From Cephalotus follicularis (taxonomy: Eukaryota; Streptophyta; Magnoliopsida; Oxalidales; Cephalotaceae), in contig BDDD01000989.1 of assembly GCA_001972305.1 (NCBI GenBank), positions 124,001 to 188,000 on the forward strand: a DNA stretch of 64,000 nucleotides, given 5' to 3'. Positions within the stretch are counted from its first letter, which is position 1. Each line of letters begins with the position of its first letter. Made by a program: the position numbers and the translations under genes. Shown one piece after another: positions 27,312 through 54,841 of the stretch. Under the pieces are notes generated by a model, which was given only the letters and a program-made list of their open reading frames with translations, had not been told where the DNA came from and made no database searches.

Positions 27312-30300
27312 TTAACAGTCATTCTTGATCCTCTATCTATCACCTATGTATCTTACTGTTTCATTGAGCAACCTTGCAAATGCAAATGAAATTTAAAGGC
27401 CAAGTCGAATGATTTAAGCTTGTTTTCCTCATCTTATTAGAGTCTTATATGTAAGTTGTTATAAAAATTATAAATTTTACTTTTGTTCAGAATAGGGGAA
27501 TAATATTATGTTACTGACCAAATACGATGAATTAAGAAGCTTCACAGAAAAAGAAAGACCCAAATATTGACAATTCATGCCCAACTTCCACTAAATATTG
27601 TACTTGCCCAATTGTGGGTTCATATTTTCATCAATAAAAAACAAACTGTCAAGTAAGTTAATCAAAATTCCCAGGCAATAATTTCAAGATGATATAAAGA
27701 CAGCGTTCAGACTCAAACAGCACAATCAAACTCAAAAAAAGCGCACAGTAACGTATGGTCCGATGCATCATGAATTACTTACTCTGTATGAGAAGTCATG
27801 TTCTGTCCCAAAGCCTCTAGAGCCCTTGTCATAGCATGAATAGTCATTTTTTTAACCTGTTACAAGTGCAGTACTCAGAAAATATTGAACGAAACACCAG
27901 CAATTTAAGTGCTTTTGCCCATTAAATAAAAAATAAGTACATCAATGTTCATGTCAGCCAGAAGCACACCTTAAACCCTACTAAAAAGGTGCCAAGTAGC
28001 ACTAATAAGAATTCAAAACAGAACTAGCCGCCCCCAATATCATTACTGAAAGGATATGGTCCGAACTAGAAACCAAGACACAGTCCAGAAAGTATCAGAA
28101 GTACGAAAAGAAATTTTCTTTTCAAATTTATCCTACCCATTCACGATCAAGAAATTACACATACAGCGATAAGGAATTGTATTAAGCATATACATCTTCG
28201 CCCAGTTAAGTTTGAAAAATCTCACTCTTCTTTACTCAGAATTCTTAGGACAGTGGAACAATAATAACAGCCCACAATGGTCAATCTATAGCAGACTAAG
28301 GATTATGACTAATGAAGCAACAAAAAAAATTATAACATGCAGCTCTGCCGTTCAGATATGGATGTATTGTACCTCCAAGTTGTCTTCACATTTGTCTGTA
28401 TTAAGTGATAAATGAACAACTGAATGATGCTGAATAGTTAAAAAGCCATACCTAAATATGGAATGATTAAGATTGAATATATGTAACTTTCTATTTTAAC
28501 CATATGAACTGTTAACGCAAATAATTCCAAATTTATATTAAATTTTCAATTTCTATTGATATATTTCAAAATAATGAATAAATACATTTTTATATTTTTA
28601 TGTATTGTTAATGATCAAATAGACAACAAAATCGATTAAATAATAGATACAGTTTTATTGCATCCTTTCAGTTTTACAACTTCTGTTTTTCTTTGATAGT
28701 GGGTCTTCACATGGATTTTGATAATTTCCAATATCGTATCTGAATTTCTGGTATATCATTTTACCTGTTTTTCTAATTTTTTAAATTTGTACCATAAATC
28801 CTTCGTTTGATATTGGACCGGTCAACTTCTTAAAAATCATATTCATGATGCAGCAATGCTTTTGTTCATCTCATTTAAACCAGAATTTAATGGTTTCAAA
28901 ATGTAACAATAGAGTGTTTAGGAAATCAACTATAAAGTACATGATCTCCTGTTTGGCTATGATTGTTGTGATGCTCAATATTCAAGTGTGCAATTATTTT
29001 GTTCCTTTGTTGATTATACTTTACTCAGATGTTCGTTGTTAATTGATTTTGAGACATGACAATTGATAACCCAATTACTGCAACGAAGGCGAAGATGAGT
29101 TGAGAGACACAGGAAATTGAGAAATTCCAAAAAATTATATCAATTGGTTTATGGGTTTACGAAAATGATGAATGAGTTAAGATACGACAAAGAGAATGAG
29201 AAAAAGAAATAGAGTATCAACAATTAGTGTAGGGTATTGGATGGAATTAATGAAATAAAGTGAGAATATTTTTGTCAACAATTGTATTAAAAGCATGTCT
29301 GAACATGTTAAGCGTTGGTCTTAAAATTTCAGATATATTAAGTCTCATTAAGTGCAAAACTAGATGCTAAAACAAATGGTCTTAATGAGTCAATATCTGA
29401 AATATTACAAGCATTAAAGATCAAACAAATGCCCCCTTAGCCTGATGGTTTGGGGGACGACCAGAAAATTCATTTTTCAACCAAATACACTAGCCAACAA
29501 AAGTTATAACAACATTTGTTAAGGCGGATAAACCTGATTAATGAACCTCGTAAATGTGTTAGGAGCATTTGATAAGTTGAAAGGCATGGCCAGCCACTCA
29601 TAAGTACCGTCTTTAGTTTCAAGGATATTTTCCATTCATCCCCTTGTCATATGCGTATTTAACGATACCCACTCTTCAAATCTATCTTCATAAACACTTG
29701 TGAGCTAGCCAACATATTAAACATGTAATCTAAACAAGGAATCGAAAAGAGATACTTGATAGTAATTTGATCAGTAGCGTGATTGTCAATACACATCCTC
29801 CAAATACCATCTGATACTTGTCTTTCAAGTTCCTCATGCTCCTTAGGACTTGTACGATAATGTGGCAAATTAGACAAGTCTATATGGTGTTGAATCCCTT
29901 AATGGATGAAGGCCAGTGGGTATCTCTTCAGGCAACGCATCACTCAATTCATCAAGCATCACCTCTACTATTTCTAGAATGTAGCTCTCCTTGCTAGCCT
30001 CTTTTGCAATCAGCACCAATATTGTAGTCATTTTCCCCTCTTCACGAGTTAATTTAAATGAAGAGAAAAGAGTTCTCGCGAGTTCCCCTCCTTCCTCGTA
30101 AGTGAACTAGGCTATATAGGACGGAGTCTAATCCTTTAATTCCCATGCATGAAGCTATAAGTATTCTTTGCACCAAAGTGAGAAGTATTCAGATCATGCT
30201 GCCAGGGTTTTCCGAAAAGATATGACATGCATCCATAGGCATAGGAACTATATCACACCAAACTAATCCTTCAAATGAGTTTCCAATTCAAAACTTTACA

Positions 30301-33300
30301 AAGCACTTGGAAGAGACAATTATTCCAATCTCCTTATGGTTGGGGATGCTTGACACACTTAAGCTTCAACTTATCCACCATCTCTTGAGATACCAAATTC
30401 TAACTACTTCTAGTATCGATGATCAGATTATACAACTTACTTCCTAAGGCACGCCAGGTTCTAAAGATGTTCTTGCATAACCAATCCTCATAAACTGATG
30501 TTTGCGGTACATCACGGCATGCCAAATAAATAAAATCTAGCCTATGGCATCCACCTCCAAGTTGTCATCTCGCACATCACCAGTTTTAACATTTTTAAGC
30601 AGTGATTTGTCCTTCCTCAACATAGGCAGCCTCATCATCTGGCTCTCCCCTAAGCTCTAATACAAAGTGGACTTGCTCTACATGCTTTCACTTTGGACAT
30701 TCATTAGAATGATGCCCCAATTCCATGCAATGATAACAACAAAGATTAGACTACATGTGGCTTCCCTTGGCTCGCTAACATGCTTGGAAGGTTAACCCAC
30801 TCTTATTAGCACCTGTGGATTGATTAGCAGTGGGCTATTGAACTTTCTCCTGATGTCTCAATTCAATTGTGTTCCAACCCTCAATGCCAATTGATAAGCA
30901 TCCTTCACCTTACACAGATTGTGCAAGCTGACTTGGTCTTCAATTGGCAGCCTTATTGACAAACCTCCTGACGCACTGCTCCAAGACACATAACAAGAAG
31001 ATATCCCTTCCAAGAGAACTTTAAACAACAGGCTTCTTTGAGAAGCTTAGTAGAATTGTACAAGAAAAGCTTACTGGAACAAAGTCAAACTTTTCAACTG
31101 AACCAACGGGACTCACAAAAAATATCCCTACAAACCGAACTTAGACTTTAAAGGGCCGTTTTGGGGGACGGCTTGTGCTTTTGAGGAAAAGGGCATTTTA
31201 GAAAACTTTTGTGAAAATGAGTTTTCAGTAGAAAGTTGTGTTAAAAATGTTTCCAAACTAAATTTATCAAAAAAGACGTTTGATAATCTAAGTGTTATAG
31301 TATATGTGTACTTGAGGTATTTTATGAAAAAAATAAAAATGTTTAAGAAAAAACAGCAAAAACACTTTTTAAAAGCTCAAGAAACTTGGAAAAAAAGGTT
31401 CTAAGTTTTGTAATTTTGAGCTTTAGGTTTTGATCAAAAACTAAAAACAATGGTTACCAAACATTTGGGCTTCAGGTTAAAAGCCCTCCAAACCAGGCAC
31501 TTAGGCTATTTGAGGGACTTGTGCTTTTGACAAAAAAGCTTTTTAGAAAATTTTTGTAACATCAATGGTCTTTAGATGATAATATTGAGAAATGTTTTCC
31601 AAACTAAATTTATCAAAAAAGATATTTGAGAATCTAAACGTTATATTACGTGTGTAGTCAAGATATTATATGAAAAATGTGAGGATATTAAAAAAACAGC
31701 AAAAGCACTTACTTAAAGCTTAAAGAATTAAAGACAGAGCTTTTCTACTTTTGCAAAAACTTAACCAAACAACTCTAAAATGAGCTTGTACAAAAATCTA
31801 GAGACTGGAAAAATTGACTAAAACAGCCTTTACACATAATGGAAGCATATTATGACCTGAGAGTAGAAACGACCATTCAGATCTTGACACAGGAACCTAA
31901 CTCGAAAGTAACAAGAAATAAATGAGTTTGGATTTGACTTAAACAAGTCAAAATCAACTTGTTTAACATGTTTACTGAACATATCGATTTCGAGTCAACT
32001 CGCTCAACTCGAAATTGACCCACAATTAACTTCTGTAATAAACAAGTCACGTGTCAAACTGTTTAATGACCTAACACAAACATAACACATTTATAACGTG
32101 TTTACAAATTATAATAATTAAGCAAATGATGAAGAGCTAGGATCTATTGCCACCTAGTGACAAGGGTTTGAATTTGCACCCTATCTTATATCATCCAATA
32201 GATTTACATCCAAAAGTCTACGGAGTACAAATGTTTCAAGACCCTTGAATGTAAATCATTGAGTGGTATAAGATGATATGACAAACTTTATTGAGTGGTA
32301 TAAGACGAGGTGACAAACTAAAAGTTTGCCACCGAGTGGCAATAGATCCTACCTCAATAATGAATATAATAATTCAAATTTGTTATAAGAAACAAAAAAC
32401 CCTAACAGTTGACCTAGTTAATAAAAGAAATTAGAAAAAAACCTTACACGTCACAATTCACAAAATTTCCTCTCTTTCTTTCTCTTTATTGTCCTTTTGT
32501 CTTCTCTCTAACCCGCCACCCCGTTAAACCCTCCTGTGTCCCCTCTCTCTATATAAACTCAAAACACATATGCTTTTCTCAATATCCAACCCACCGACCC
32601 TCTATCTTTTTCTCAAATACAAAATCTTTTCTTTCTCACCATCCACGACATGAGCATCCAAGCCACCAAAGGACGCGAGTATCAACGCCATCAATATGTC
32701 ACAATGACAACATCAACTGCACCAACGGACTATCAACGCCAGCCATCAACCATTTGATGAAACCCAAATTGGGCCATTAACTCCTTTCAAACTTCTCTGC
32801 AGCCTAATAGGTGAGTGAATAAGTTCACTCAATTGTTTGAGGTCATTGAGTAGTCTAAGCTTACTGATTTCATTGGGTGGTTTATGTGTAGTAGGTAACC
32901 ATCATTTAATAAACATGTTATTTTTTGGCGAGTTGATTTTGGGTTATAAACGGGTTGACTTGAATTGACCCGATTACTAAACAGGTTACACGGGTTGTGT
33001 AACCTATTTATTAAATGGGTTGTGTTTGGGTTTAGACTTTTGACATTGATTACTAAACGGGTTGTGTTCGGATTGACCTATTTGGTATTATAGCCCTCTA
33101 TCCTGACACAACACGCCGATATGAATTACCACCCCTACCTGAGAGGTGACTACCATTAGATCATGACTAATGAAACAACATAAAAAGTTTTAAAAACATA
33201 TAGCTATATTGTTTAGATATAAGTGGAAAACTGTACCTCCAACTTGTCCTCCTTAGCCCGATGGTTTGGGGGAAGCACACGGAATTCATTTGTCAAGCGA

Positions 33301-36300
33301 ATACACTCACCAACATTCTCAGGGGCAACAAAGTCGAGCGCAACCTTTATGCATGACTGTAAAAGATTCAAACAAGAAATTGGAAATATAGATGTGCATA
33401 AACCCAATAATCAACAATTGATTATATTATCATAGTTACATTATTGTTAAATAACAACAAGCATCATCTTTTGATAATAACAACATTCAATACTAGATAA
33501 CACTTCCACGAGATTATTCCTATCAAACTACCTAAGCAATCAATACAAAAATAACAAAATTCGAAGCAATAAGTAGTTCAACTTGTCAAGAAGTACAGAA
33601 ACTTGCTTACCATATAATCTAAAACTTCACAACTCTTATATCTCTAACCCTACTAAAGTACATGTGCCAACTCACTGTTATACAATCATATGGGTGTGAA
33701 TTCAAGATGCAAGGTAGAAAATATCACAAAGCACAGCGCGAACACATGGCACATGCATAAATGAGTTATTTAATGACAGGCCATCGACATCATAAGCCTA
33801 TAGAACAGTAATAAAAAATATTAGAATCTCAGAAATAGCTTCCAGAAGTCAACCTTTCATTTTTTTTGGTCCAATGAAAGGCCATATAACGTAATCTTCT
33901 CCCAATTCCCTAGAACCTCCTCAATCCTGGGTGAAAAAAGAATTCAGTCCTCAAGTATTTGGCGTCAACATCAAGGTACTTTACCAACCAAATTAAGTGA
34001 CATTGTTGCCTCACCCCTTTCTAATAGCATAAAACTTCTAAAAGATTTGCTTTTCAAAACAAGTCAACAGGTAGAAACAAACTTAACATCACATGACATT
34101 CCACTTGAAACACTGTAATCACCACGGTAGGGCCTTTTAAACAGCTATACAACTTGTGCTTGACATAGCCGCAACAAAAGAACACAGCTTATGGGCAAAA
34201 GAACAATAATTATCACATGCAAAGCATTCCAGTAATTATGGATAATACAGGGGTAAAAACAGATTACAATCCAAACTTGTGTAAAATAGGGCAAAAAGGA
34301 AAACCATATGGAGAAATTTTATCTTACCTTTAAGTTTCTAACTTGATGTGGACACCCCGCAGGAATAAACACAGCATCTCCAAGTTTCTGGACAAATGTC
34401 CATGGTTCGATGCCTATATGATCGTATAAAGCACGCAACTATTATTATTTTACAAGACAAATGGAAACACTAAATCTAAAAATCAACACATTCAAAAGAG
34501 TAGGATGAAAACACTAACCATATTCCTCTTTGAGCTTTCTTTTATGCTCTAGAGTCAAATAAAAGGTCTGATCATGAATGGAGTGAACAACCTGTGCCAC
34601 AAATAAAAGAAGTTAATCACTGTATACATATCCATGTACAAAAGATAAGTCAAATCAGTTTCCACAGCACAGTAAAACACCACATCATATAGCATTCCAC
34701 AACAATACTATTCAAGCAGTTGCAAAGCAAACATTATCGTTTAGTTTACTTGATCTATTGGATACTTCACCTGTTTTATGATCTACAAACAATTTGTTAA
34801 TACAGGAGTGAAACACCTAAACTTTAGTCATTCAAACAAGCAAGTCGCAGCGGCTTCTCATGTAACTGCCTACTATTTGATAAAACGGTAAATTATCTGC
34901 AGAAAACGTTAATGACTAATTTTATATCCTTCGTCATCGATTAAAGTTCTCAAACAGCTTGTCAGTCACCTCCATTCATATACCAAAGATGCTTCAGTCG
35001 TAATTTTATTTAATTCAGATTTAAAAACAACAAAACGACGTTGGGTGGGGATTGGGACAAAAAATCTTGCCCTTTACCTTTGGCACTGGACAGCAATGGA
35101 TGTGCCTGAATTCCTTATAATGCTTTTCAAGATACTCCTCCAACCTAGGAACATCTTCTCTACGAAAGATGTCCCATAGAGCACCTCCCTCAGCAGCATC
35201 CACACCCTCCAACTTACTTCCAGAACTTGTAGAAGGACCACCATTCTCACAACCAACAGCTTCAGGCAATGCCCCCCCTTCACCTGCTTCATCTTCCAAT
35301 ATCTTCGTATCATCATGCTCATTTAACATCGATTTCCCATTATGAGCGCCTCCCTCAGCAGGTTCAAGCCCCTCCGACTTACTTCCAGAACTTCTAGGAC
35401 CACCACCACCACCACCATTCTCACCACCCACAGCTTGAGCCGATGCCTCCTCTTCAAGTGCTTCATCTTCCAATACCTTTATATCATCATTCTCATTTAG
35501 CATCAATTGCCCATTATGAGAACCTCCCTCAAAACCTTGCAGCCCCTCCGACTTACTTCCAGAACTTGTACGACCATCATTCTCACCTCCGACAGCTTGT
35601 GCCAACATTACCTCTTCATATACTTCATCTTCCAATATCTTCGTATCATCATTCTCATTTAACATCAATTTCCCATTATGAGCACCTTCCTCAGCGGCTT
35701 CAAGCCCCTCCGACTCACTTCCAGAACTTGTAGGACCACCACCATCACCATTCTCACCACCCACAGCTCGAGCCGATGCCGCCTCTTCAAGTGCTTCATC
35801 TTCCAATACCTTTATATCATCATGCTCATTTAACAACAATTTCCCATAATGAGCACCTCCCTCAGCACCTTGCAGCCCCTCCGACTTACTTCCAGAACTT
35901 GTAGAAGGATCATCATTCTCACCTCCGACAGCTTGTGCCAACGTTACCTCTTCATATACTTCATCTTCCAATATCTTCATATCATGATGCTCATTTAACA
36001 TCAATTTCCCATTATGAGCACTTCCCTCAGCAGCTTCAAGCCCCTCCAACTTACTTCCAGAACTTGTGGGACCACCACCACCACCATTCTCACCACCCAC
36101 AGCTCGAGCCGATGCCGCCTCTTCAAGTGCTTCATCTTCCAATACCTTTATATCATCATGCTCATTTAACATCAATTTCCCATTAAGAGCACCTCCCTCA
36201 GCACCTTGCAGGCCCTCCGACTTACTTCCAGAACTTGTAGAAGGACCATCATTCTCACCTCCGACAGCTTGTGCCAACGTTACCTCTTCATATACTTCAT

Positions 36301-39300
36301 CTCCTACGGTCTTCATATCATCATTCTCATTTGACATCAATTCCCCTTTAAAATCATCTGGCTGAAATAGATCAGCTGGCTCAACACCAGCACCGCTATC
36401 GTCAACAATTTTGTCACTAGAAGCATCAGCACTTCTGTCACTGTCAACTGTGTTGCCAATATGTTCAACAATTCCAAAAATTTCTCTTTGGTCTTGCTGA
36501 AAGTGTTTTTGTTTCAATTCTTCAATTTTAATAAGCTGTTCAGGTGTAAGGGACACTTCAGCTGTATGTGCTAAGACGTTCACCTAAAACAGACAAATTC
36601 AAAAAAGAAAACAAATTAATTAATATCACTTTCAAAAGGGGGGAAAAGACAAAGAAACCCAAAAGTTTCAGATAAATTTCTCACTGCTCTGCAACATATG
36701 GAATGTCAACCATTCAAAATGCATATTACAGGTAAGAAAGGAAATCATGGCACTTTTCAATGATACAGCAGTTGCTAATCCTTTACAGGAAAGGAAACCT
36801 ATTGAGTTATGAGGTTTAAGTTGACAGGAATTACGTGAGTCAGTAGAAAGCCTATCAAACCTTGTTATTGTATTTAAACTACATGAGTGGAATACTAATT
36901 ACTGATTGCTGGACATTTTGTGGTAAAAGACTATCAAGATGGGAACGACATTGCAGATAGTGGTAGAATGATAGAATCCAACAATCTAAAGAACAGTTAC
37001 AACAGCACGATGACCAATTTCTAAAGTTGCAATAATGAGGAATAAAGGACATATAAATACAGTCAATGGAAAACTGCTATCAACCATTGACTCAGTGAGG
37101 TAAGTAAACCAAAGGCCCATAGACACTCTCTTGTCATGATTGTACTGGATGTTGGATGTAATACACACATGTACATCACCACAATATCTCTAATAGCAAC
37201 AGTTAGGGTCATGGCATTACACAATATTTGCATTATTACACATCATTAGCATAACTTTGGTAAGTGTTAAGAAACAAATTAGACAAAAATGCCTTTGAGA
37301 ATTGCAGATATCATTTGCTCCACACAGACAAAGAAACCAAATCTAAAATGAATTCCTATTTGAATTACATGCCTGATTAGCAGGCCTTATATGCCAAATC
37401 ACTTCAACTCTCAATAACACAAAACAGCCACTATATGCCCAATTATTAAAAAAAACCATTAAAATTAAATGATGCACCTAAAAAATAATTCTTAAATGTG
37501 ACCCTGAATTGAACTCTAGTGTTTCTTAGACACTCATTGGTTCGAAGTGCAGGGCTTCTCCAAGTACAAGTTCAGAGTCAGCATATTGTCCATTTGACCT
37601 ATTTTTTATATTGCATAACTATGGTAACCTACTTAAAATTTTGCAACGATGTGATTGCATGCCCATCCAAAGTTTTGTGATAAGCAAACAAAATACAGTA
37701 ACAAAATAAACTAACCGCGTCAGACATGTCACAATGCAGCTTAGTTACAGAATCTCCGCGCCCAAGCTCTTGAGCAACTCCATAAGCGATATAAGTTTTA
37801 GGCCCCATGTCAGGCTTCAAAGATTTCTCAGGCAAACAGGTAGCTAGGTTCAAAGGGCCACAACAAGGATGTGTATATTCCTTAAAGGGTAAACAACAGA
37901 GAAACTCGGCACCATGGCGTGGCAAGCGCTTGTCAAATTCAGTAGATGGAGGCCAATCTTTCAATTTCAGTATCTGAGGCCAATCAGAAGAGTCAAATCG
38001 ACCTTTCGAATAGCCATTAAAGAATTCTTTGTTATTAATTTCTACCTGCATTGATCATGATAATTCATATTATTACCCAAAAAAAAGTGACAAAAATAGC
38101 ACTTACAACTTACATTAAGAGTTTAACATATTTGGAAAAGAAGAAACAAAACAAATACAGCCATACAGATTACATGAAATGGAAACAGATTTAAACACTT
38201 AATAGGAAAACTATCTGATATGGACTATACCAGAATGGCATTGAAAACCAATAAATAATGGTTACTCACCCAATAAAGGCAATAACAGCGATTGACCAAT
38301 CTAAATTTACTTCGGCTAACTTCTCAAGTCAACAAAAGAAGGAGTACAAGTCATCCTCTAGCAGAATAGAGTTCAAGAAACATTACTTTTCAGTGTCATT
38401 GGAGAAAAATTTCCGTCTGTAAAGTAGGATTCTTTTTTTCATAATTTCAAATCCAATTCATCTAACAATAGTCCAATTAACATCCAATCAAAAGCATTCG
38501 AAACTTAAGAGGAAAAAATTATCATATATTAATTTAACCAATAATTTAAATAAAAATTTGGAGAGTAGTGAGACACAGCTATATAGCCTAATTAAAGAAT
38601 AAGAAGAAAAAAAGCATCACATAGAAAAACAAATAAAATATCAAACAAACAACCTCTTTAATTATCGCTCATGAGCTTTCTTGCATAACATGTGAAAACA
38701 CATCACATCGAAAGATATAAACAAATAAACTGACCTCACACCAATCCAAACATTCAAGTGCCTTTACATCCAAATGTCGGCCGTGCTTTAGATTATTTAT
38801 CTGACGAAAGGCACGCCACATGACCATCGGCTCCCAGCTTAAGCCAGATGCAGTTTCAAGTACATTCCTAACAATTACGGGCTCAGCTCTCATCCAATGG
38901 TGCCGAAAATGCTCCAAATCCTCATGCTGGATATCCATGGCCTTTGGACAGAATAAATAGTTATCAACAGAATCTTCTCGAGAAGCAGCTTTCAATATCT
39001 TACCACCGCTCAAGTCAACATCACCAATGTAATTAAAACACAAACAACGTTCTTCAGGAATCCTAGAAATATTCACAAGACCCAAACTTCCTGCAATATC
39101 ATCCGCTTTTTTTGCCAACTCCAAGACAAAGTTTTCTGGAAACATACACTTCAATTCTAGGATTCCATCACCACAAAAGCAAGAAATGCTTCCATCATCA
39201 TTTGCTTTCCAACCAGAAATTGACCTCACAAGATCCCTGTTGCGGGCCTCATCAGAAACTCTAACCACGCTCCCTACCCCACCATGCAAATATTTAAATC

Positions 39301-42183
39301 CTCGGTCAATAAACTCCATAGACACTTCCTCCCCACCTCCCTGGAGATGTCCATTCCGAACCTCCCAGCAACAGATGAGGCAGAGATCAGAGGAACAGTT
39401 TGAACAGCTCCTGTGAAAATCAAAGATTGAAGTTCTGCAATTGTCACTGCAAGTAAGAGAACTGGCATCAGAATCACATAAAATATACAGAATAAGTGGG
39501 TTAAAAACTACTCCAATAAGTGGTCCTACCAGAATACTCGCTCATTCTCTGCAATATTTGCATTTGCTATCTGTAAATCTTCAAGTGCTAGCCCTGCACA
39601 AATTACAGTGACAAATGGTTTTATGTAGCAGTTTCTGGTTCAAATCAGGTTTTTCTAAACCTGAAAGCCATATTTTAATCCTTGATGAACTAACTTACTA
39701 ACAGCTACTCATAGGATCTTTACAGTTGCAGATGAGGGAATAAAGGCATTAAAATTTTAAGAAAATAAATATACAAACAAACAAAGGCAAGTGTAACTTC
39801 TAATGTCTGGCCATACTTCTGAGGCAGTGAAAGAGGCAAATTTCACTTCCATTAATGGTGAAACCTATTATTTGATAATTCAACATCCAAATTATAGGGT
39901 TTGCCAGAAAACAAGGGTTGCTAACCAAATGAATTACAAGCCTATATACAATGAACCCAACTGAATACCTAGTCGTGTAGCCTCCACCTCCTTCTCCTTC
40001 ATTTGTTCCAAATTTATTTGCTTCAAATATGGGAGGAGTGTTTCTACCACATACTTAGCGTAATACACTTTTTCACCATCACTGACAACCGGATTATAAT
40101 TCTTCAGATCCTACAGTCAATAAATACTTAATAGTTTAATCACATGTCCCACATACATGCATTGAAAAGACTTATAAAGTATGATGTGCATAGAGATGGA
40201 AAAACTTACGTTAATGGGAACATCTAAGCGTAAACATGCTTTGCAATTGCAATTTTTACGACAAAATGGGCAAGATTGAGCAATGTCATCCTCTTCCATG
40301 TTAGGATACCTAAAATCATTATAAAAATAATTGGTTCAACAGCAAAAAGAAAAAGAAAACAACAGAATAATTAGCTGAATAGGCATTCTAGTTGAAACAG
40401 CCTACACTATGTCATTGCAGACGCTCTTGGGAGCTTTCACCTGGGCCAGTTTATTGCATATGCATTCTAAAAAATGTAATCTGGTACATTTTTAAAAAGC
40501 CAGAATCTTACATGATCCGATAACATCTTCACATATGGGACGGAAAGCCATGTAAAACAATATTTGTCATAAACTTTCCAAGGTCTGGGTGACAGTTCAT
40601 TCAATCCTAAACACAGTTCAAATAGGGTAATGCCAATTAGGTAACACTTGGCCCTTATGTCACTATCACTGATTAGGATTTATTATCCTTGATTAGGATT
40701 CATAAAGCTATACATAAACCTTCCCTGTAATCTATATGTCATCACTAGTTTTGCTACTAAACCTACACTAAATTGAATTGGATACTTGTAGATCCAGCAA
40801 TATGTGAGAAGATTAAAGAGTTATTGATCCATTGTAGAAATTCGATAGAAAATCTGAATGACATCAGATCCTATATTCTACTCTATATAGTAAAATCAAT
40901 GAGCCATATTACCAATAGATATTTGTAAATGTCATTTAAAAAAGAAAGCAACTGAAAGAGTAACTATAGAACAGTATAGTATCAAACTGAAAGTCTCCCA
41001 TGAGAAACCAATAAATAAAAACAGAAAACAGAAATTCAGATCTAAGTCAACAATGCTACACTCTAATATTATATCATGGGATTCATAGCATATATCAATA
41101 ACATCAACAACAGTTAATAGTAATAGATGTCACAAAACTTCATGAAAACAGTACCACTTTTAGCCAAAAATCATACAAGAATTATGTGATTCAAATAAAA
41201 TGGAAATGAAGTTGATGATACACATTAACATACCAAGTCTTCAAGCAGGGGATACAGTATCTCTTTCTCCGACATTTTTGGCACCGAACAACTCGGCCTT
41301 TATCATTCCTTTGACATTGATGGCACATTGAAGACTCAATAAACTATAAATCCAAAATTAGAAACAGAACAAAATAAGTAAACCAAAGATACATAAGCAA
41401 GTAACAAAACTACAACAAATAACACAAACACAGACAAAATCACCTTACCTCTGGATCATGCTTGTTAAGTTTCCCTTCCTCCTCCACTGATACATGACCA
41501 TTTGGATTCCTCAATGAATACCTTGATTCCTGTTCACCTTCCCTTTTAGCCTTTGCAGCAACCTGCTTTTTTGCAACCACCTCTTTATCTTCTCCGCCAC
41601 TGTCACCGTCCACTTGGACTACAGTTTTCGGGGCTTTGGTCCTTTTCCTGCCCTTTCGACGGGGCTTTTTCGGAGAACCTTCTTCATATTCTTCAATCTC
41701 AGCATAATTCACCCTCTTTTTAGCAACCCTTATTCTCTTCCCCAAAGTCCCACCACTCTCTTGCCCAGTCTCAATCACCAAGTCCTCGTTTTTCACATTG
41801 CCACTACTCCTTTGAAACACAATAGCCCCTTCATCTCCCTTCTTCAAATCAACCCCAACTTTTATCTCAACATCAATCAAAATCTCTCCTTTATCTCCTT
41901 CTTCCTTTCCATCCACTCTCAACCCATCTTTCTCTTCATCAAATTTCAAATCCCTACCACTTCGTTCCGCTTTTTTGCCATCAAAATCCAAATTTTCTTC
42001 CACTTCCCCCTTCCTAACCTCCTTCGCACCAATTCCCAGTCCGACCTTGGGATCTTCCGTGATTTCCGCCTTTTTCTTCGGTTTACGACCACGCTTCTTC
42101 TTCTCTGGCCCACAATTTTCCGTCAGTTTGTCGGTAATCTCCGGCACTTCCTCTGATCGCTGCCGCTTCTCACCTATCTCCAT
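26871..42183 (-). CDS. KDM3/JMJ25-type JmjC histone demethylase, tandem copy A
   Basis: Nuclear Fe(II)/2-oxoglutarate JmjC protein of the plant KDM3 group (IBM1/JMJ25-like), expected to remove H3K9 methylation. Thirteen exons join in phase: 41449-42183, 41234-41343, 40210-40309, 39969-40110, 39530-39593, 38735-39446, 37716-38045, 35078-36583, 34519-34591, 34328-34413, 33237-33356, 27783-27856, 26871-26934 (about 1371 aa). Seen: AT-hook-like [10 protein letters not shown] near residue 30; RING-like Cys cluster (CHQCQR...[14 protein letters not shown], about 250-310); a second Cys cluster (CDNC...CSNC...CLICC, 385-420); JmjC with iron ligands HxD (H725, D727) and H1280 in GCPHQVRN. Exon 8 adds a seven-unit acidic repeat inside JmjC. 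Exon 13 supplies a basic tail ([13 protein letters not shown]). The upstream in-frame codon is GTG, so ATG 42183 is the start. Intron 11 is 5.4 kb and transposon-filled. Confidence 0.92.
27269..27309. repeat. (GA)n microsatellite in intron 12 of copy A
   Basis: About 20 GA units. The matching intergenic position beside copy B lacks it. Confidence 0.95.
28305..29510 (-). pseudogene. Decayed duplicate of JmjC exon 11 inside intron 11 of copy A, split by an insertion
   Basis: 28305-28388 matches the intron/exon border of exon 11 (33181-33255), including gactaatgaa, cagatat and tgtacctccaa. 29432-29510 continues the match (cttagcctgatggtttgggg, aattcattt, aatacact, ccaaca) at about 75-80% identity. 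The two pieces are separated by about 1.04 kb. It is too eroded to code for the JmjC C-terminal strand and is best read as a relic of a local exon duplication. Confidence 0.7.
28389..29431. mobile_element. TIR-like insertion splitting the exon-11 relic
   Basis: The interrupting segment begins CATTTGTCTG and ends CAAACAAATG, a 10-bp inverted repeat with one mismatch. The interior is AT-rich without an ORF of note. A target duplication is not clear because the host sequence is itself eroded, so the family is unassigned. Confidence 0.45.
29510..31000 (-). mobile_element. Ty3/gypsy fragment in intron 11 of JmjC copy A, broken
   Basis: Fossil gypsy-type piece on the same strand as the host gene. 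Parts seen: a CCHC zinc knuckle of Gag ([12 protein letters not shown], near 30710-30770), a protease-like stretch (about 30370-30450) and the start of reverse transcriptase ([23 protein letters not shown], 29659-29877). No LTRs were found, and it is a broken fragment with many breaks. It is absent from copy B. Confidence 0.8.
31150..31800. repeat. Two adjacent copies of a MITE-like sequence in intron 11 of copy A
   Basis: 31150-31503 and 31504-31800 share the ordered words ggacttgtgcttttga, ttccaaactaaatttatcaa, gatatttgagaatctaa-like and aacagcaaaagcactt, about 75-80% alike. The outer ends (gggccgttttggggg, and ccctccaaac at the end of the first copy) resemble terminal inverted repeats. They could be a tandem insertion of one family or a local duplication. 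Confidence 0.65.
32134..32355. mobile_element. Mutator-like MITE nested in the hAT element
   Basis: Long inverted repeats of about 45-50 bp: gagctaggatctattgccac at the left, and the reverse complement of the right end reads gaggtaggatctattgccac. Flanks AATGATGAA (32125-32133) and AATAATGAA (32356-32364) agree at 8 of 9 positions, the 9-bp size made by Mutator-like transposases. Confidence 0.8.
32440..32820 (+). promoter_or_regulatory. Promoter-like stretch inside the hAT element
   Basis: A pyrimidine-rich run (tcctctctttctttctcttt), a clean TATATAAA at 32550-32557, and a C/A-rich leader-like region ending near a potential splice donor (ataggtgagtg, 32809). It may be the remains of the parent transposase promoter and leader, or a captured host promoter. 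It points opposite to the host gene. Confidence 0.35.
35180..36349 (-). repeat. Seven-unit in-frame repeat in exon 8 of JmjC copy A
   Basis: 390 residues made of seven 54-58 aa units of the form [17 protein letters not shown], ([10 protein letters not shown] or [10 protein letters not shown]), [21 protein letters not shown]. Units alternate between the two types, so the true period is a dimer of about 112 aa (336 bases). All units keep the frame. The region is acidic, low in hydrophobics and probably disordered. Confidence 0.95.
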
Positions 42184-43260: not shown

Positions 43261-44578
43261 TCACGTTATAAGGTCATCATACTTCAACTCATTACGAAGC
43301 CAAATTTCCCTCATGTCTTCACCTAAAGCAGCAAACATCAATCTTTTATCTCTTACCATAAAAAGTCGGGTAGCAAACAAGAACAGTTCACCACCGCGCT
43401 CAATGCCAGGAGTATTTTTTAACAACTGCATAACCTCCGGAATCGTACAATCACATGCTTTTGAAGTAGATATATTATTATCAGCTTCAATTGCCGCAAC
43501 AAGACGATCAATTTTCATTTCCAACATTTTTTCACCACAAACTTTTTGTGGTAAGCTTTCCTTGCTTATTTTTGACTTCATCTGTGCAATGCCAACACTT
43601 CTCTTCCCCTTCCTTGGAGTATCATTAGTCCCTAGATTGGTTTGTGTATCACCAATAATGGGGCCTTTTGTGAGTTTATCTGGGCTAACATCCAATTCAT
43701 CATCAACCTCAACAATTTTGTTAACACCCTCACCAAGCATATCAACAGTTGAAGGTGCCCCGGCACCTGACCCAGTAGATAAGCCAATAATGGAGACTGT
43801 TGTGAGTTTATCTGCGATAACATCCAATTCATCATCAACCTCAACATTTTTGTTAACACCCTCACCAAGCATATCAACAGTTGAAGGTGCCCCGACACCT
43901 GACCTAGTAGATAAACCAAAAATGGGGCTTGTTGTGGGTGTATCTAGGCCAACATCCAATTCATCACAATCAGAATCATTATTACCCTCAATAATTTTGT
44001 TAACACCCTCACCAAGCATATCAACAGTTGAAGGTGCCCCAACCCCTGACCCAGTAGATACAATGTTTGAGAACATACTACTTAACTTATCAAAAAGCTG
44101 GGGCTTTATGCCACAATTACGAAATTTCTTTGCAGCGGGAACCACCTACACGTTATAAAAGAAACAATATTAATAATACATTATGTAAAATTGATAATTA
44201 CCATTAATTCATGTTAAACAATAGAAAAGTATAATATACACGAACCTTAAGCCTCTCATTCCACCAATTATCGTCTGCAGCAACTGTTTGCTTGATATAA
44301 TTCCACCCTAATCCAGTATAAGGTCCAATCAAATCCCTCCATAATTCAAAATCATTTTTCAAACTGTCCCACTTACTCATTAACTGATCTTTGTCATAAT
44401 TCATTTTACTCTCCTTTTGAAATGCATAAACAACCTGCGACCAACCAGTAGAATGGAACGGCACACCCCCATTGGATATCTCTTTGATACATACATCACA
44501 AAAAACGTTAACAAGGTGATAATCCCAATATGCCTTCCCTGCATCTTTTGTCGCATTTGAGTTCTTCTTTTGGGTCAT
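43261..44578 (-). CDS. Myb/SANT-like DNA-binding protein
   Basis: Two-exon gene (44246-44578 and 43261-44145, phase 0 GT/AG intron) encoding about 405 aa. Residues about 12-111 form a Myb_DNA-bind_3 (Myb/SANT-like, trihelix-type) domain: AYWDYHLVNVFCDVC, GVPFHSTGWSQVVYAF, DQLMSKWDSLKNDFELW, GLGWNYIKQTVAADDNWW. The middle holds three tandem 43-49 aa repeats (residues about 140-275), then a basic segment (KGKRSVGIAQMKSK) and a C-terminal helical part (FLFATRLFMVRDKRLMF) common in this family. Such proteins (L10-interacting MYB-like) are nuclear; some derive from the accessory gene of PIF/Harbinger transposons. The ATG at 44578 is the first in frame after a TTG. It lies in the gap between the two JmjC copies, has no counterpart elsewhere in the window except the relic at 14098, and may be a host gene or a transposon-derived one. 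Confidence 0.82.
43651..44058 (-). repeat. Three-unit in-frame repeat in the Myb/SANT-like gene
   Basis: Three copies of GSGVGAPSTVDMLGEGVNK followed by an acidic linker (DDELDV) and a PII/SII-G ending, 49, 44 and 43 aa long. The nucleotide copies are nearly identical over the first 60 bases, which points to recent expansion or conversion. Confidence 0.93.
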
Positions 44579-44639
44579 GAGATAGGGCGGTTTATGGGGC
44601 AACTCCTTCTTTTGTTGCTTTAAGGGTAAGCGGATCTAA

Positions 44640-46839: not shown

Positions 46840-49800
46840 TTACTCTGTATGAAAAGTCATTTTCTGCCCCAAAGCCTCCAGAGCCCGTCTCATAGCGTGA
46901 ATAGTCATTTTTTTTACCTGTTACAAGAACAGTACTCAGACAATATTGAGCAAAATGCCTACAATTAAAGTGGTTTTGCCCATTAACTAATGTTCATGTC
47001 ACCCAGAAGCACACCTTAGACACTAGTAAAAGGAGCCAAGTGGCACTAATAAGAATTCACAACAGAACTAGCTACCCACTATATCATTTATGAAAGGATA
47101 TGGTCTGAACTTGAAATTGATATATACAGTCAAGGTAGTATCAGAAGTATGAAAAGAAACTTTCTTTTCAAATATATTGTAGCTATTCAAGTGACAAAAA
47201 ATTAGACAAACAGCACAAAGGAATTCATATTGAGTTATATTGGTTAGAAAAATTACAGTCGTTAAATGATTAAAATTAGGAAATTGAAGGAAAATTTAAA
47301 ATAAGCTAAAAGGGTTGTTCATGTCATTAAATGAGTTAGTCTCAGTTCAACACAATCCATAAACATGTTATTTCTTGACGGATTGATTTTAGGCTATAAA
47401 CAGGTTGATCTAAATTGGCCCGTTTAATAAACAGGTTACACAGGTCGTGTCGTGTTACCCGTTTCTTAAATGGGTTTTGTTTGGATTGAGACTTTTGATA
47501 CGATTATTAAATGAGTCGTGTTCAGGTTGACCTATTTAGTATTATACCCGTCTTGACAGGACCTGCTTACATTCTGCCAACACGAACTGCCAGCCCTAGC
47601 TGAGAGGTAGCTAACATCAGGTCATGACTAATGAAACAACATAAAAAATTTTAAGAACACATAGCTATGTTGTTGCAATAAAAATGGAAAACTGTACCTC
47701 CAACTTGTCGTCCTTAGCCTGATGGTTTGGGGGAAGCACACGGAATTCATCTGTCAAGCGAATACACTCACCAACATTCTCAGGGGCAACAAAGTTGGCC
47801 GTAACCATTATGCATGACTGTAAATATGTAAACAAGAATTTTGGAAAAACATATGCATAAACCGAATAATAGATAATCAAGTATATTATTATTGTTAAAT
47901 AACAACAAGCATCATCTTTTGATAATAACAACATTCAATACTAGATCACACTCCATGGCATTATTCCTCCCAAACTATCACAAAATAAAAAATCAATACA
48001 AAAAATAACAAATTTCGAAACAATAAGTAATTCAAGCTTACTTCAATTTATTCATGATAAATTGACATTCAATCATGTCAACAAATATTTCTATCAACTA
48101 GAAATAAAACCAGGGTGAAACCAGATAAACTGTTCCGATGATGAATGCAGTTTAACTTGTCAAGAAGTTCAAAACTGGCTTACCGTATAATCTAAGACTT
48201 CACAACTCATATATCTCTAGCCCTACTAAAAAGCACATGTCAACACATTTTTTATGCAACCATATGGGTGTGACTTCAAGATGCAGGGCAGAAACTATCA
48301 GAAAGCACAGCACAAACGTATGGCACATGCATAAATGGGTTATTTAACAAGACAGTTAGACACTAAATCTAGAGATAATAAAAAATCTTGAATCTCAAAA
48401 ATAGCTTCCACATGCCACCCTTTCATTTTTTTGGGGTCCAATGAAAGGGCCAAACAACGTAACATTCTCCCAATTCCCTAGATCCCCCGCAATCCCGGTT
48501 GAAAAAAGAATTCAATCCTCAAGTATTTGGCGACAACACCAAAGTACTTTAGCAACTAAATTAAGTGATACTCACCCCCTTTCTAATTGCATACCACTTC
48601 TAAAAGATTTGCTTTTCAAAACTAGTCAACTGGTAGAAAATAAATTCAACATCACATGACATTCCACTTGGACTCTGTAATCACCTATACAACATGTGCT
48701 TAACATTGCTGCAACAAAAGTACACAGCTAATCAACCCAAAAAAAGAAAACAATAAACATCACATGCAAAGCAATCTAGTCATTATGGAAAATGCAGTAG
48801 TAACGTTAGATTATAATCCAAACTTGTGTTAAATAGGGCAGAAAGGAAAACCATCAAGAGAAATTTTATTTTACCTTTAAGTTTCTTACTTGATGTGGAC
48901 AACCCGCAGGAATAAACACAGCATCTCCAAGCTTCTGGACAAATGTCCAAGGTTCAATACCTATAGGAATGTATAAAGCATGCAACTATTATTATTTTAC
49001 TAAATGAATGGCAACACTAAATCCAAACATCAACACATACGAAAGAGTACGATAAAAACACTAACCATATTCCTCTTTGAGCTTTCTTTTATGCTCTACA
49101 GTCAAATAAAAGGTCTGATCAAGAATGGAGTGAACAACCTGTGCCACAAATAAAAGAAGTTAATCACTGTATAAAACCATATCCATGTATAAAAGATAAT
49201 TCAAACCAGTTTCCACAGCAGAGTAAAACACCACATCATATAGCATTCCAGCACAATACTACTCAAGCAGTTGCAAAGCAAACATTATCGTTTAGTTGAC
49301 TTGATCTATTGGATACTTCACCTGTTTTATGATCTACAAACAATTTGTTAATACGGGAGTGAAACACCTGAACTTTAGTCATTCAAGCAAGCAAGTTGCA
49401 GCCGCTTCTCATGTAACTGCCTACTATTTGATAAAGCGGTAAATTATCTGCAGAACACATTAATGACTAATTTTATATCCTTCGTCATCGATTAAAGTTC
49501 TCAAACAACTTGTCAGTCACCTCCATTCATATACCAAAGATGCTTCAGTCATAATTTTAATTAATTCAGATTTAAAAACAACAAAAGGATGTTGGGTGGG
49601 GATTTGGACAAAAAATCTTGCCCTTTACCTTTGGCACTGGACAGCAATGGATGTGCCTGAATTCCTTATAATGCTTTTCAAGATACTCCTCCAACCTAGG
49701 AACATCTTCTCTACGAAAGATGTCCCATAAAGCACCTCCCTCAGCAGCATCCAGTCCCTCCAACTTACTTCCAGAACTTGTAGAAGGACCACCATTCTCA

Positions 49801-52800
49801 CAACCAACAGCTTCAGGCAATGCCCCTTCTTCACCTGCTTCATCTTCCAATGTCTTCGTATCATCGTGCTCATTTAACATCGATTTCCCATTATGAGCAC
49901 CTCCCTCAGCATCTTCAAGCCCCTCCAACTTACTTCCAGAACTTGTAGAAGGACCAACATTCTCACCTCTGAAAGCTTGTGCCAACGTTACCTCTTCATA
50001 TACTTCATCACCTAATATCTTTATATCATTATTCTCATTTGACATCAAATTCCCATTAAAATCATCTGGCTGAATTAGATCAGCTGGTTTAACAAAAGCA
50101 TCGCTTTTGTCAACAATTTTGTCACTAGAAGCATCAGCACTTCTGTCACTGTCAACTGTGTTGCCAACATGTTCAACAATTCCAAAAATTTCTCTTTGGT
50201 CTTGCTGAAAGTGTTTTTGTTTCAATTTTTCAATTTTAGTAAGCTGTTCAGGTGTAAGGGACACTTCAGCTGTATGTGCTAAGACGTTCACCTAAAACAG
50301 ACAAAATAAAAAAGAAAACAATGTCAACCATTCAAAATGCACATTACAGGTAAGAAAGGAAATCATCGCACTTTTCAATGATACAGTAGTTGCTAGTCCT
50401 TTACAGGAAAGGAAACCTATAGAGTTATGAGGTTTAAGTCGACAGGAATTACTTGAGTCAGTAGTGAGTCTATCAAACCTTGTTATTGAATTTAAACTTC
50501 ATGAGTGGAATACTAATTACTGATTGCTGGACATTTTGTGGTAAAAGACTATCAAGATGGGAACGACATTGCACATAGTGGTAGAATGATAGAATCCAAC
50601 AATCTAAAGAACAGTTACAACAGCACGATGACCAATTTCTAAAGTTGCAATACTGAGGAATAAATGACATGTAAATACAGTCAATGGAAAACTGCCATCG
50701 ACCATTGACTCAGTGTGGTAAGTAAACCAAAGGCCCATAGACACTCACTTGTCATGATTGTACTGGATGTTGGATGTAATACACACATGTACATCACCAC
50801 AATATCTCTAATAGCAACAGTTAGGGTCGTGGCATTACACAATATTTGCATTATTACACATCATTAGCATACTTTGGTAAGTGTTAAGAAACAAATTAGA
50901 CAAAAATGCCTTTGAGAATTGCAGATATCATTTGCTCCACACAGACAAAGAAACCAAATCTAAAATGAATTCCTATTTGAATTACATGCCTGATTAGCAG
51001 GCCTTATATGCCAAATCACTTCAACTCTCAATAACACAAAACAGCCACTATATGCCCTATTAATGTGACTCCGACTGGAACTCTATAATGTTTCTGAGAC
51101 ACTCATGGGCTTGAAGTGAAGGGCTTATCCAAGTACAAGTCCAAAGTCAACATATTTTCCATTTGATCTTGCATAACTATGGTGACCTACCGAAAATTTT
51201 GCAACAAGTAGAACGTACAATTGCATGCACATCCAGAGTTATCTGATAAGCAAATCAAATACAATAACAAAATAAACTAACCGCATCAGACATCTCACAA
51301 TGAAGCTTAGTTACAGAATCTCCACGCCCAAGCTCTTGAGCAACTCCATAAGCGATATAGGTTTTAGGCCCCATGTCAGGCTTGAAAGATTTATAAGGCA
51401 AAAAGGTAGCTAGGTTCAAAGGGCCACAACGAGGATGTGTATATTCCTTAAAGGGTAAACAACAGAGAAACTCAGCACCATGGCGTGGCAAGCGCTTGTC
51501 AAATTCAGTAGATGGAGGCCAATCTTTCAATTTCAGTATCCGAGGCCAATCAAAAGCATCAAATCGACCTTTTAAATACCCATTAAAGAATTCTTTGTTG
51601 TTAATTTCTACCTGCGTTGATCATGACAATTCATAATATTAAACAAAAAAAAAGGTCACAAAAATAGCACTTACAACTAACATTAAGAGTTTAACATATT
51701 TGGAAAAGAAGAAACAAAACAAATACAGCCATACCGCTAACCGATTTACATGAAATGTAAACAGATTTAAACACTTAATAGGAAAACTATCTGATATGGA
51801 CTATACCAGAATTACCTTGAAAACCAAGAAATGATGGTTACTCACCCAATAAAGGAAATTACAAGGATTGAACAACTTATATTTACTTCTGGTAACTTAT
51901 CAAACTATTGGATTGGTCAACAAAAGAAGGAACACAACTCATCTTCTGGCAGAATAGAGTTCAAGAAACATTACTTCAGTGTCACTGTAGAAGAATTTCC
52001 AACTATAAAGTGGGTTTCTTTTTTTCATAGTTTCAAAGCCAACTCCTCTAATAATAGTCCAATTAATAACCCACCCAAAAGCATTTGAAACTTCTGAGAA
52101 AAAAATGTTATATTAATTTAACTAACAATTTAAATAAAGACTTAGAGAGTAGTAACACGCACCTCTAAAGCCAAATTCAAGAATAAGTGAAAAAAATAAA
52201 CATCAGTTGCAAAACAAGCAAAATATCAAACAGAAATATAGTTTAAATCTCCCTCATGAACTTTCTTCAATAACATGTGAAAACATTCCACAGAGAAAGA
52301 TATAAACAAATAAACTGACCTCACACCAATCCAAACATTCAAGGGCCTTTACATCCAAATGTCGGCCGTGCTTTTGACTATTTATCTGACGGAAGGCACG
52401 CCACATGACCATTGGCTCCCAGCTTAAGCCAGATGCAGTTTCAAGTACATTCCTAACAATTACAGGCTCAGCTCTCATCCAGTGGTGCTGAAAATGCTCC
52501 AAATCCTCATGCTGGATATCCATGGCCTTTGGACAGAATAAATAGTTATCAACAGACTCTTCTCGAGAAGCAGCTTTCAATATCTTACCACCGCTCATGC
52601 CAACATCACCAATGTAATTAAAACACAAACAACGTTCTTCAGGAATCCTAGAAATATTCGCAAGACCCAAACTTCCTGCAATATCGTCCGCTTTTTTTGC
52701 CAACTCCGAGACAAAGTTTTCTGGGAACATACACTTCAATTCTAGGATTCCATCACCACAATAGCAAGAAATGCTTCCATCATCATTTGCTTTCCAACCA

Positions 52801-54841
52801 GAAATTGACCTCACAAGATCCCTGTTGCTGGTCTCATCCGAAACTGTAACCACGCTCCCCACCCCACCATGCAAATAATCAAATCCTCGGTCAATAAACT
52901 CCATTGACACTTTCTCCCCACCTCCCTGGAGATGTCCATTCCGAACCTCCCAGCAACAGATGAGGCAGAGCTCAGAGGAACAGTTTGAACAGCTCCTGTG
53001 AAAATCAAAGATTGAAGTTCTGCAATTGTCACTGCAAGTAAGAGAAGTGGCATCAGAATCATATCAAATATACAGAATAAGTGGGTTAAAAACTACTCCA
53101 ATAAGTGGTCCTACCAGAATACTCGCTCATTCTCTGCCAAATTTGCATTTGCTATCTGTAAATCTTCAAGTGCTAGCCCTGCACAAATTACAGTGACAAA
53201 TGGTTTTATGTAGCAGTTTCTGGTTCAACTCAGTTTTTCTAAACCTGAAAGCCATCTTTTAATCCTTGATGAACTGACTTACCTGCAGCTACTCATAGGA
53301 TCTTTACAGTTGCAGATGAGGGAATAAAGGCATTGAATTTAAAAAAATAAAATAAAGAAAAAACCAAAAACAAGGGTAACTTCTAACGTTTGGCCATACT
53401 TTTGAGCCAATGAAAGGGGCAAATTTAACTTCCATATTTGATGGTTCAACCTATTATTTGATAGTTCAACATCCAAATTACAGGGTTTGTCAAAAAAAAA
53501 AACAAGGCTTGCTAACCAAATGAATTACAAGCCTATATACAATGAACCCAACGGAATACCTAGTCGCATAGCCTCCACCTCCTTCTCCTTCATTTGTTCC
53601 TCATCTATTTGCTTCAAATATGGGAGGAGTGTTTCTACCACATACTTAGAGTAATACACTTTTTCACCATCACTGACAACCGGATAATAATTCTTCAGAT
53701 CCTACAGTCAATAAATACTTAATAGTTTAATCACATGTCCCACATACATGCATTGAAAAGACTTATAAAGTATGATGTGCATAGAGATGGAAAAACTTAC
53801 GTTAATGGGAACATCTAAGCGTGAACCTAAGCGTAAACATGCTTTGCAATTGCAATTGTTACGACAAAATGGGCAAGACTCAGCAATTTCATCCTCTTTC
53901 AAGTTAGGATACCTAAAATCATCGTGGAAATAATGGGTGCAATAGAAAAAAAGAAAATCACCCTACAACAATTATGCGATTCAAACAAAGTGGAATGCTA
54001 AACATTAACATACCAAGTCTTCAAGCAAGGGATACAATATCGCTTTCTCAGACAACGTTGGCACCGAACAACTCGGCCTTTATCATTCCTCTGACATTGA
54101 TGGCACATTAAAGACACATTCGCAATGCACTATACATCAAAAATTTAAAATATAACAAAATAAGTGAACCATAGATAGATACATAAGCAACTACAACTTA
54201 TAACACAAACCCAGATAAAATTTCCTTACCTCACGCTTGTCACATTCCCCTTCCTTCTCCACTAATACATTACCATTTGGATTCCTCAATGAATAATTTG
54301 ATTCACCTTTCATTGTACCATTTCCTGCAAGCTGCTTCTCTGCAACCACCTCTGTACCTTCTCTGCCACTCTCACCATCCTCTAGGACCACACTTTTTCT
54401 GCCCTTTCGACGGTACTTTTGCTTATAAAGTCTTTCATCTACTTCATTATTCACATTCTTATTTCTCATCCCCAAAGACCCACCATTCTCTTGCCCATTC
54501 TCCATCACCAAGTCATCTTTTTTCACCTTGCTACTGTTCCCTTGAATCAAAATATCCCCTTCATCCGCTTCCTCCTCTCGCTGCCGCTTCTTCCGACCAT
54601 TCTTCACTGCAAGCTCTACCCTCTCACCGTCCTCTTGACCGGGCTTTTTCGCAGAAACTCTATCGCATACTTGAGTAGCAGCATAACACACCATATTAGC
54701 AGCCCTTGTTGTAATCCCCAAAGACCCACCATTCTTTTGCTCATTCTCAATCACCAAGTCATCATTTTTCACCTTGCCCCCACTCCTTTGAATCAAAATA
54801 TCATCTTCCTCTGCCAGCGGCCACTTCTCACGTCTCTTCAT
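46840..54841 (-). CDS. KDM3/JMJ25-type JmjC protein, tandem copy B
   Basis: Paralogue of the gene at 26871-42183. Twelve exons join in phase: 54230-54841, 54014-54129, 53801-53912, 53560-53701, 53115-53178, 52320-53031, 51282-51611, 49629-50291, 49066-49138, 48875-48960, 47698-47817, 46840-46917 (about 1035 aa). The RING-like and second Cys clusters and the JmjC fold are kept. Differences from copy A: the N-terminal AT-hook-like stretch is missing; exon 1 has an internal duplication of about 82 aa; exon 3 has a 4-residue insertion (RLGS) between RING-like cluster and linker; the iron motif is HxE (H690, E692, with H964); exon 8 has two acidic repeat units; and the protein ends at TAA after MTFHTE with no basic tail exon. 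Start: the first in-frame ATG is 54841; a TTG lies two codons before. No internal stop, so it is probably functional. Confidence 0.9.
47335..47610. mobile_element. Remnant of the hAT element in intron 11 of JmjC copy B
   Basis: Carries the same cgggtt/aacaggttacac subterminal words and the same right edge (ccagccctagctgagaggta against ccacccctacctgagaggtg) as 31864-33137 in copy A. The left half and its flank are not recognisable. Confidence 0.65.
49731..50057 (-). repeat. Two-unit in-frame repeat in exon 8 of JmjC copy B
   Basis: 109 residues: one [10 protein letters not shown]-type unit and one terminal [10 protein letters not shown]-type unit, matching the first and last units of the copy A array. 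Confidence 0.93.

Follow-up and report, generated by a model that had tools for sequence, protein, structure and literature searches.

Two tandem KDM3-type genes with repeats in the JmjC coding region

We analyzed a 64,000-nt window of the Cephalotus follicularis genome (assembly GCA_001972305.1, contig BDDD01000989.1, positions 124,001-188,000, forward strand; coordinates below are those of the window). It contains two tandem genes, here called copies A and B, which carry seven and two units, respectively, of an in-frame repeat array within the region coding for the JmjC domain. Exons of both copies were placed by homology between A and B together with splice signals (Table 1). Since this homology stops at 32909 on the copy A side, the last exon belonging to copy A itself is uncertain.

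Both copies matched the JmjC profile PF02373 (A, E = 2e-13, 51.2 bits; B, E = 3e-13, 50.7 bits; cut-off 24) and, N-terminal to it, the zf-4CXXC_R1 profile PF10497 (27.7 bits in A and 25.3 bits in B; cut-off 22.7). When the PDB was searched with copy B, all seven distinct sequences found at E ≤ 0.001 were human KDM3B or JMJD1C. Judged from these matches, both copies belong to the plant KDM3-type (JMJ25/IBM1-like) genes, an assignment made at the level of the family and not to one Arabidopsis gene. The best PF02373 stretch covers positions 34-114 of the 114 in A and 56-114 in B, and the match of copy B, the only query used for this comparison, to the JmjC structures of KDM3B and JMJD1C splits in two at the array. 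Surveys based on Pfam JmjC matches may therefore score such domains as partial.

The iron triad HxD...H is present in the copy A model, with HCD at residues 725-727, GALW from residue 1198 and the distal His at 1280. The array lies between the HxD and the GALW/His part, as the initial annotation of this locus had proposed. Copy A retains the motifs HCD, IHDQ, HQVRN and KVALDF, and identical or near-variant motifs occur in three further loci of the same assembly, C42, C1094 and C461. Copy B has HCE for HCD, ILDQ for IHDQ and MVTANF for KVALDF (D727E, H1239L, K1290M and D1294N in copy A numbering). ILDQ is also found in a fourth locus, C548, and the aligned JMJD1C sequence, LHIEVSD, is an HxE form like the HCE of copy B; HxE by itself does not show that copy B would be inactive. 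No HxD turned up in motif searches of C548 and of a fifth locus, C4118, a result that does not prove its loss.

Table 1. Coordinates of the genes, exons, repeat units and A/B tract within the window
Feature	Position	Strand	Basis or remark
Copy A gene model, exons 1-11, zf-4CXXC_R1 and JmjC	33237..42183	-	own exon 12 uncertain
Exon 7 of copy A, C-terminal end HCDMSDA (HxD iron ligands)	37716..38045	-	
Exon 8 of copy A, 1506 nt, 502 codons	35078..36583	-	open frame, splice signals, agreement with copy B
Exon 10 of copy A, distal iron-binding His	34328..34413	-	
Seven-unit array of copy A, 388 aa: dimers A1A2, A3A4, A5A6 and terminal A7	35177..36340	-	
Unit A1	36340-36176	-	protein register
Unit A2	36175-36005	-	protein register
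Unit A3	36004-35840	-	protein register
Unit A4	35839-35669	-	protein register
Unit A5	35668-35507	-	protein register
Unit A6	35506-35333	-	protein register
Terminal unit A7, end falls inside GGAL	35332-35177	-	B2 counterpart (95.5% nt identity)
Dimer 1 (A1, A2), 112 aa	36005..36340	-	
Dimer 2 (A3, A4), 112 aa	35669..36004	-	20 differences in 336 nt to dimer 1
Dimer 3 (A5, A6), 112 aa	35333..35668	-	26 and 24 differences in 333 nt to dimers 1 and 2
A/B high-similarity stretch spanning exon 8, introns included	34508..37440	-	segment scan and intron counts
Copy B gene model, 12 exons, two repeat units	46840..54841	-	
Copy B exon with array, 663 nt	50291-49629	-	
Two-unit array of copy B (B1 50048-49884, B2 49883-49728)	49728..50048	-	Tandem Repeats Finder, 49731-50058
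Copy B exons 7, 9, 11 with altered JmjC positions	51611-51282, 49138-49066, 47817-47698	-	

Structure of the array

Exon 8 of copy A, bounded by TTAG and GTAA splice signals, keeps one frame throughout and encodes VNVLAHT, a linker, the seven units and then GGALWDIF. Direct-repeat spacings of 165, 174, 162, 171, 165 and 171 nt mark seven copies, and Tandem Repeats Finder (TRF), applied to 35172-36350, returned both a 171-nt period with 7.0 copies (78% match) and a 336-nt period with 3.5 copies (89% match). Read in the protein register, units A1-A7 are 55, 57, 55, 57, 54, 58 and 52 amino acids (aa) long. Nucleotide identity among them is 90-93% for odd-odd and 93-95% for even-even pairs, against 79-84% for odd-even pairs. 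Odd units thus resemble odd and even resemble even, so that A1A2, A3A4 and A5A6 form dimers and A7 stands apart. In copy B, B1 is closest to A1 (91% at the nucleotide level; A3, 90%) and B2 to A7. The difference in exon length between A and B amounts to 843 nt, that is, 281 aa or five units and, five being an odd number, it is not a whole number of dimers. The unit counts, the alternation of two unit types in a 112-aa dimer and the in-frame difference of 281 aa had all been described in the initial annotation, and all were recovered here.

If most of the array were removed as an exonic intron, it would hardly exist in the protein. Scores of the donor-like GAG|GTAA sites in A1, A3 and A5 (7.8, 7.8 and 9.1) fall among those of the native donors of these genes, and there is an internal acceptor, at 35105, with a score of 9.7. 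Joining them, however, would excise 1178, 842 or 506 nt and break the frame. Among all GT/AG pairs ≥60 nt apart inside exon 8, in-frame pairs with the 35105 acceptor require donors scoring ≤4.3 and would cost an 11-residue protein stretch, whereas other in-frame pairs require an acceptor scoring ≤5.0, lower than 20 of the 21 own acceptors. The T content is 24.9%, compared with 40.4% in introns 1-10. The array is predicted not to be an intron, as its sequence shows no sign of one, and we regard its removal by splicing as very unlikely. Tandem arrays of 1.2 kb that have a similar paralog next to them are difficult to assemble. The units nevertheless carry private differences, the dimers differ from one another at 20, 26 and 24 sites, and no other contig matched when the assembly was searched with the array, which makes an assembly error a very unlikely source of the seven units in copy A.

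A variable loop lengthened by duplication

The 1.58-Gb assembly containing the window was searched with exon 6 and the best candidates were scored, so that the number of loci is a lower bound. Besides A and B, this yielded at least five further KDM3-type loci (C42, C1094, C461, C548 and C4118). All seven compared loci have a single open frame running from VN.L (VYLL in C4118) to GA[LVQ]W, and the loop between them measures 459 aa in A, 178 in B, 405 in C42, 89 in C1094, 155 in C461, 137 in C548 and 101 in C4118, with net charges of -76, -24, -12, -7, -1, -4 and -14, respectively. Direct repeats of ≥30 nt were absent from the five loops other than those of A and B, including the 405-aa loop of C42. 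Once the array and part of the linker were taken out of copy B, it aligned to KDM3B in one stretch (189.7 bits), and this alignment places about 36 residues of KDM3B, also acidic, at the point of the array. Since a loop is present in all seven loci and about 36 aa are found in KDM3B, the site is a tolerated, variable loop of the family. A single point of the JmjC coding region in plant KDM3-type genes can thus take up insertions of great and varying size, which in this genome alone run from 89 to 459 aa. The array had been called unusual for a demethylase, a view that the comparison does not support as regards the presence of a long loop. What is peculiar to copy A is the mode of length gain and the strong acidity.

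Two other candidates, C1140 and C3755, were dropped from the loop count because their match to A/B spans only about 360-376 nt (9.9 kb fetched each). These are isolated fragments, 88-90% identical to A/B, that cover intron 5 and the first part of exon 6 (C1140, L036 4715-5086; C3755, L037 4526-4877) and may be genomic DNA that mobile elements have picked up. With exon 6 as the query, no relative was found in scans of bacterial/archaeal or viral contigs. Within the window, a 3′ fragment of a third KDM3 copy lies at 27395-29500, comprising parts of exons 11 (29499-29430 and about 28387-28373) and 12 (27856-27779) with an interruption of ~1 kb. Another in-frame protein repeat, unrelated to the array, occupies 43261-44145 on the minus strand (TRF, 2.4 copies of a 132-nt unit, VGAPSTVDMLGEGVNK...) and adjoins an open reading frame with a Myb_DNA-bind_3 domain (44204-44635, E = 1.1e-16).

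The unit junctions, six in A and one in B, bear on how the array arose. Each reads GAGGGAGGTGCTC followed by (T/A)TAATGGGAAA, at fuller length GAGGGAGGTGCTC(T/A)TAATGGGAAATTGATG, or close variants, so that an EGGAL edge meets the upstream FNG edge. Their left part corresponds to the end of the array, GAGGGAGGTGCTCTATGGGAC (EGGALWD), and their right part to the upstream edge, which in copy B is TTTTAATGGGAATTTGATG; the junctions retain "EGGA(L)", the beginning of the conserved GGALW. From this anatomy, the GGAL and FNG edges were brought together in the first event, as in a tandem duplication of a segment of the loop. When the whole assembly was searched with the array DNA, copies A and B alone matched. 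As far as its sequence indicates, the array arose in this lineage by tandem duplication of the C-terminal segment of the loop itself, not by an insertion of foreign DNA.

Copies A and B have probably also exchanged sequence around exon 8. Introns 7 and 8, which flank it, differ at 79 of 1466 aligned sites (5.4%), against 393 of 2790 (14.1%) in introns 1-6, 9, 10 and the alignable part of 11 (Fisher P = 2e-19). A segment scan with permutation, run from exon 2 on with the middle of the array excluded and constrained exons included, placed its top stretch at 37440-34508 (score 29.0; maximum of 11.1 in 500 shuffles) and a second one at 39691-38710. Introns inside the top stretch differ at 3.8% of sites (48/1263), compared with 14.2% (424/2993) outside; as the limits of this stretch were derived from the very data compared, and constrained exons enter the scan, the whole-intron count is the fairer test. 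Gene conversion would be the likeliest cause of the similarity in introns 7 and 8. Separately, the 3′ part of intron 7 (36584-37440) is nearly identical between the copies and intron 3 (40111-40209) is identical at 99 of 99 sites, a similarity that exceeds that of several exons.

Growth of the array may be pictured as follows, although the order of the steps is our reconstruction. About 55 codons at the C-terminal end of the loop, including the first codons of GGALW, would have been duplicated head to tail, and the two-unit product would later have been duplicated as a dimer, giving the three dimers and terminal unit of copy A. Unequal exchange at dimer register, as suggested in the initial annotation, fits these three dimers but cannot alone give the five-unit difference between the copies, for which one or more events outside that register are required. 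Copy B may have reached two units by loss or may have kept a shorter array. B1 has an odd-type head and an even-type tail (2 switches over 19 scorable diagnostic sites, P = 0.02; the switch saves 4 mismatches, P = 0.07), a mosaic pattern that weakly favors contraction of B. However, A3 gains more from a switch than B1 (from 12 to 7 mismatches), so that mosaicism is not confined to the units of B, and B1 would be explained equally by an ancestral unit that had not yet differentiated. The dimers diverge by 6.0, 7.8 and 7.2%, against 3.8% in the introns of the A/B tract (P = 0.09, 0.003 and 0.011), and would be older than the last exchange between A and B if rates are equal.

Selection, disorder and relation to known demethylases

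Expansion at constant frame had been taken to suggest selection for coding capacity, an argument that the data do not bear out. Unit lengths are multiples of 3 nt, so the gain or loss of whole units cannot shift the frame, and the lack of stops in the array is weak evidence, given that 1.3 are expected by chance (P = 0.26). We compared like units (A1, A3 and A5; A2, A4 and A6; A7 with B2; B1 left out) and found 32 of 43 substitutions to be nonsynonymous (0.744 versus a neutral expectation of 0.708, P = 0.74); 11 of these 32 change charge (0.34 versus 0.42 expected, P = 0.47). The ratio of nonsynonymous to synonymous divergence (dN/dS) was 0.5-1.5 in 32 of 36 unit pairs, the outlying pairs being A7/B2 (0.21), A1/B2 (0.47), A5/B1 (1.64) and A3/A5, which is without synonymous change. 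Divergence between like units thus looks near-neutral. Between copies A and B, dN/dS is 0.60 for aligned array codons and 0.34 for the core in exons 6 and 7, and dN is 0 over the 36 exon 8 codons C-terminal of the array. The array appears to be tolerated and coding, and the sequence data give no demonstration of selection for its sequence.

By composition, the array is acidic and probably disordered, in agreement with the initial annotation: it has a net charge of -65 over 388 aa and an isoelectric point of 4.1, and falls on the disordered side of the charge-hydropathy line (0.419; boundary 0.473). A search of the PDB with the array alone gave no match at E ≤ 1. In the linker N-terminal of the array, a helix is predicted at residues 14-52. 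We consider it probable that the array represents an enlarged version of a native, length-variable and probably disordered loop of plant KDM3-type proteins, situated between the HxD strand and GALW; it has the look of a natural loop that was locally lengthened, not of a new part of the enzyme. The polypeptide would loop out from the JmjC core and serve as an acidic spacer, with the iron site still able to form, and its effect would be at most modest, either electrostatic or through partner binding. Disorder in the cell, looping out and retained activity are presumed here, disorder from composition.

An alternative is that the acidic array is a selected regulatory element whose length and charge tune how readily basic histone tails reach the active site, A and B having diverged in function by unit number. 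The net negative charge is indeed kept in every A unit (-8 to -12) and in the B units (-7 and -11), seven units run on without stop or frameshift, and the copy A loop is by far the most acidic among the seven loci. The linker beside the array also evolves fast in protein, and copy B is altered at the conserved JmjC positions listed above. Against this, the nonsynonymous fraction between like units agrees with the neutral expectation, charge-changing substitutions do not depart from theirs, and the loops of other paralogs are weakly charged; we hold such a role to be unlikely. It is also quite doubtful that the array acts as an evolvable rheostat, in which gain and loss of 55-57-aa units, fed by exchange between paralogs, would reset histone-tail or partner engagement.

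Several observations weigh against an expanded, disordered and neutrally tolerated loop. By charge and hydropathy the C42 loop falls marginally on the folded side (0.425, against a boundary of 0.424), and loop charge differs among the seven loci, so that acidity could be specific to copy A. An AlphaFold prediction of exon 8 had a mean predicted local distance difference test score of 37, which cannot separate disorder from a missing alignment since only two sequences, A and B, were aligned. Few sites were available to the tests of selection on units, and weak selection would escape them. The 81 linker codons N-terminal of the array have a dN of 0.070 and a dS of 0.020, a ratio of 3.5 that rests on very few synonymous changes and could reflect positive selection or chance. 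Finally, constraint on intron 7, rather than gene conversion, could cause the similarity of the A and B introns; this deserves mention since in Arabidopsis IBM1 intron 7 is a regulatory methylated intron (PMC11265718).

In the literature on JmjC insertions, loops and repeats, surveyed through titles and the beginnings of abstracts with partial coverage, we recognized no such array. As tandem genes with seven versus two units, copies A and B offer a natural pair for testing loop length and charge in an H3K9 demethylase. With the plant KDM3-type H3K9 demethylases IBM1/JMJ25, JMJ26, JMJ27 and JMJ29, both copies share the combination of zf-4CXXC_R1 and JmjC, and copy A shares the HxD and the distal His; it differs from them in that its loop holds a seven-unit repeat array. 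An intron inside the JmjC coding region, intron 7 in the model here, has likewise been described for Arabidopsis IBM1 (PMC11265718). The JmjC structures of human KDM3B and JMJD1C (6rbj, 4c8d and 2ypd) provide matching segments on both flanks of the array, and at its site KDM3B has a short, non-repetitive acidic loop, whereas the array is longer and repetitive. Extra segments between parts of a single catalytic domain are also found in KDM1A, with a CoREST-binding coiled-coil insert (PMC2579438), and in KDM5, where the ARID-PHD1 insert consists of accessory domains that split the catalytic domain (PMC10247153). The array resembles both inserts in lying between parts of one catalytic domain and differs from them in being a low-complexity tandem array.

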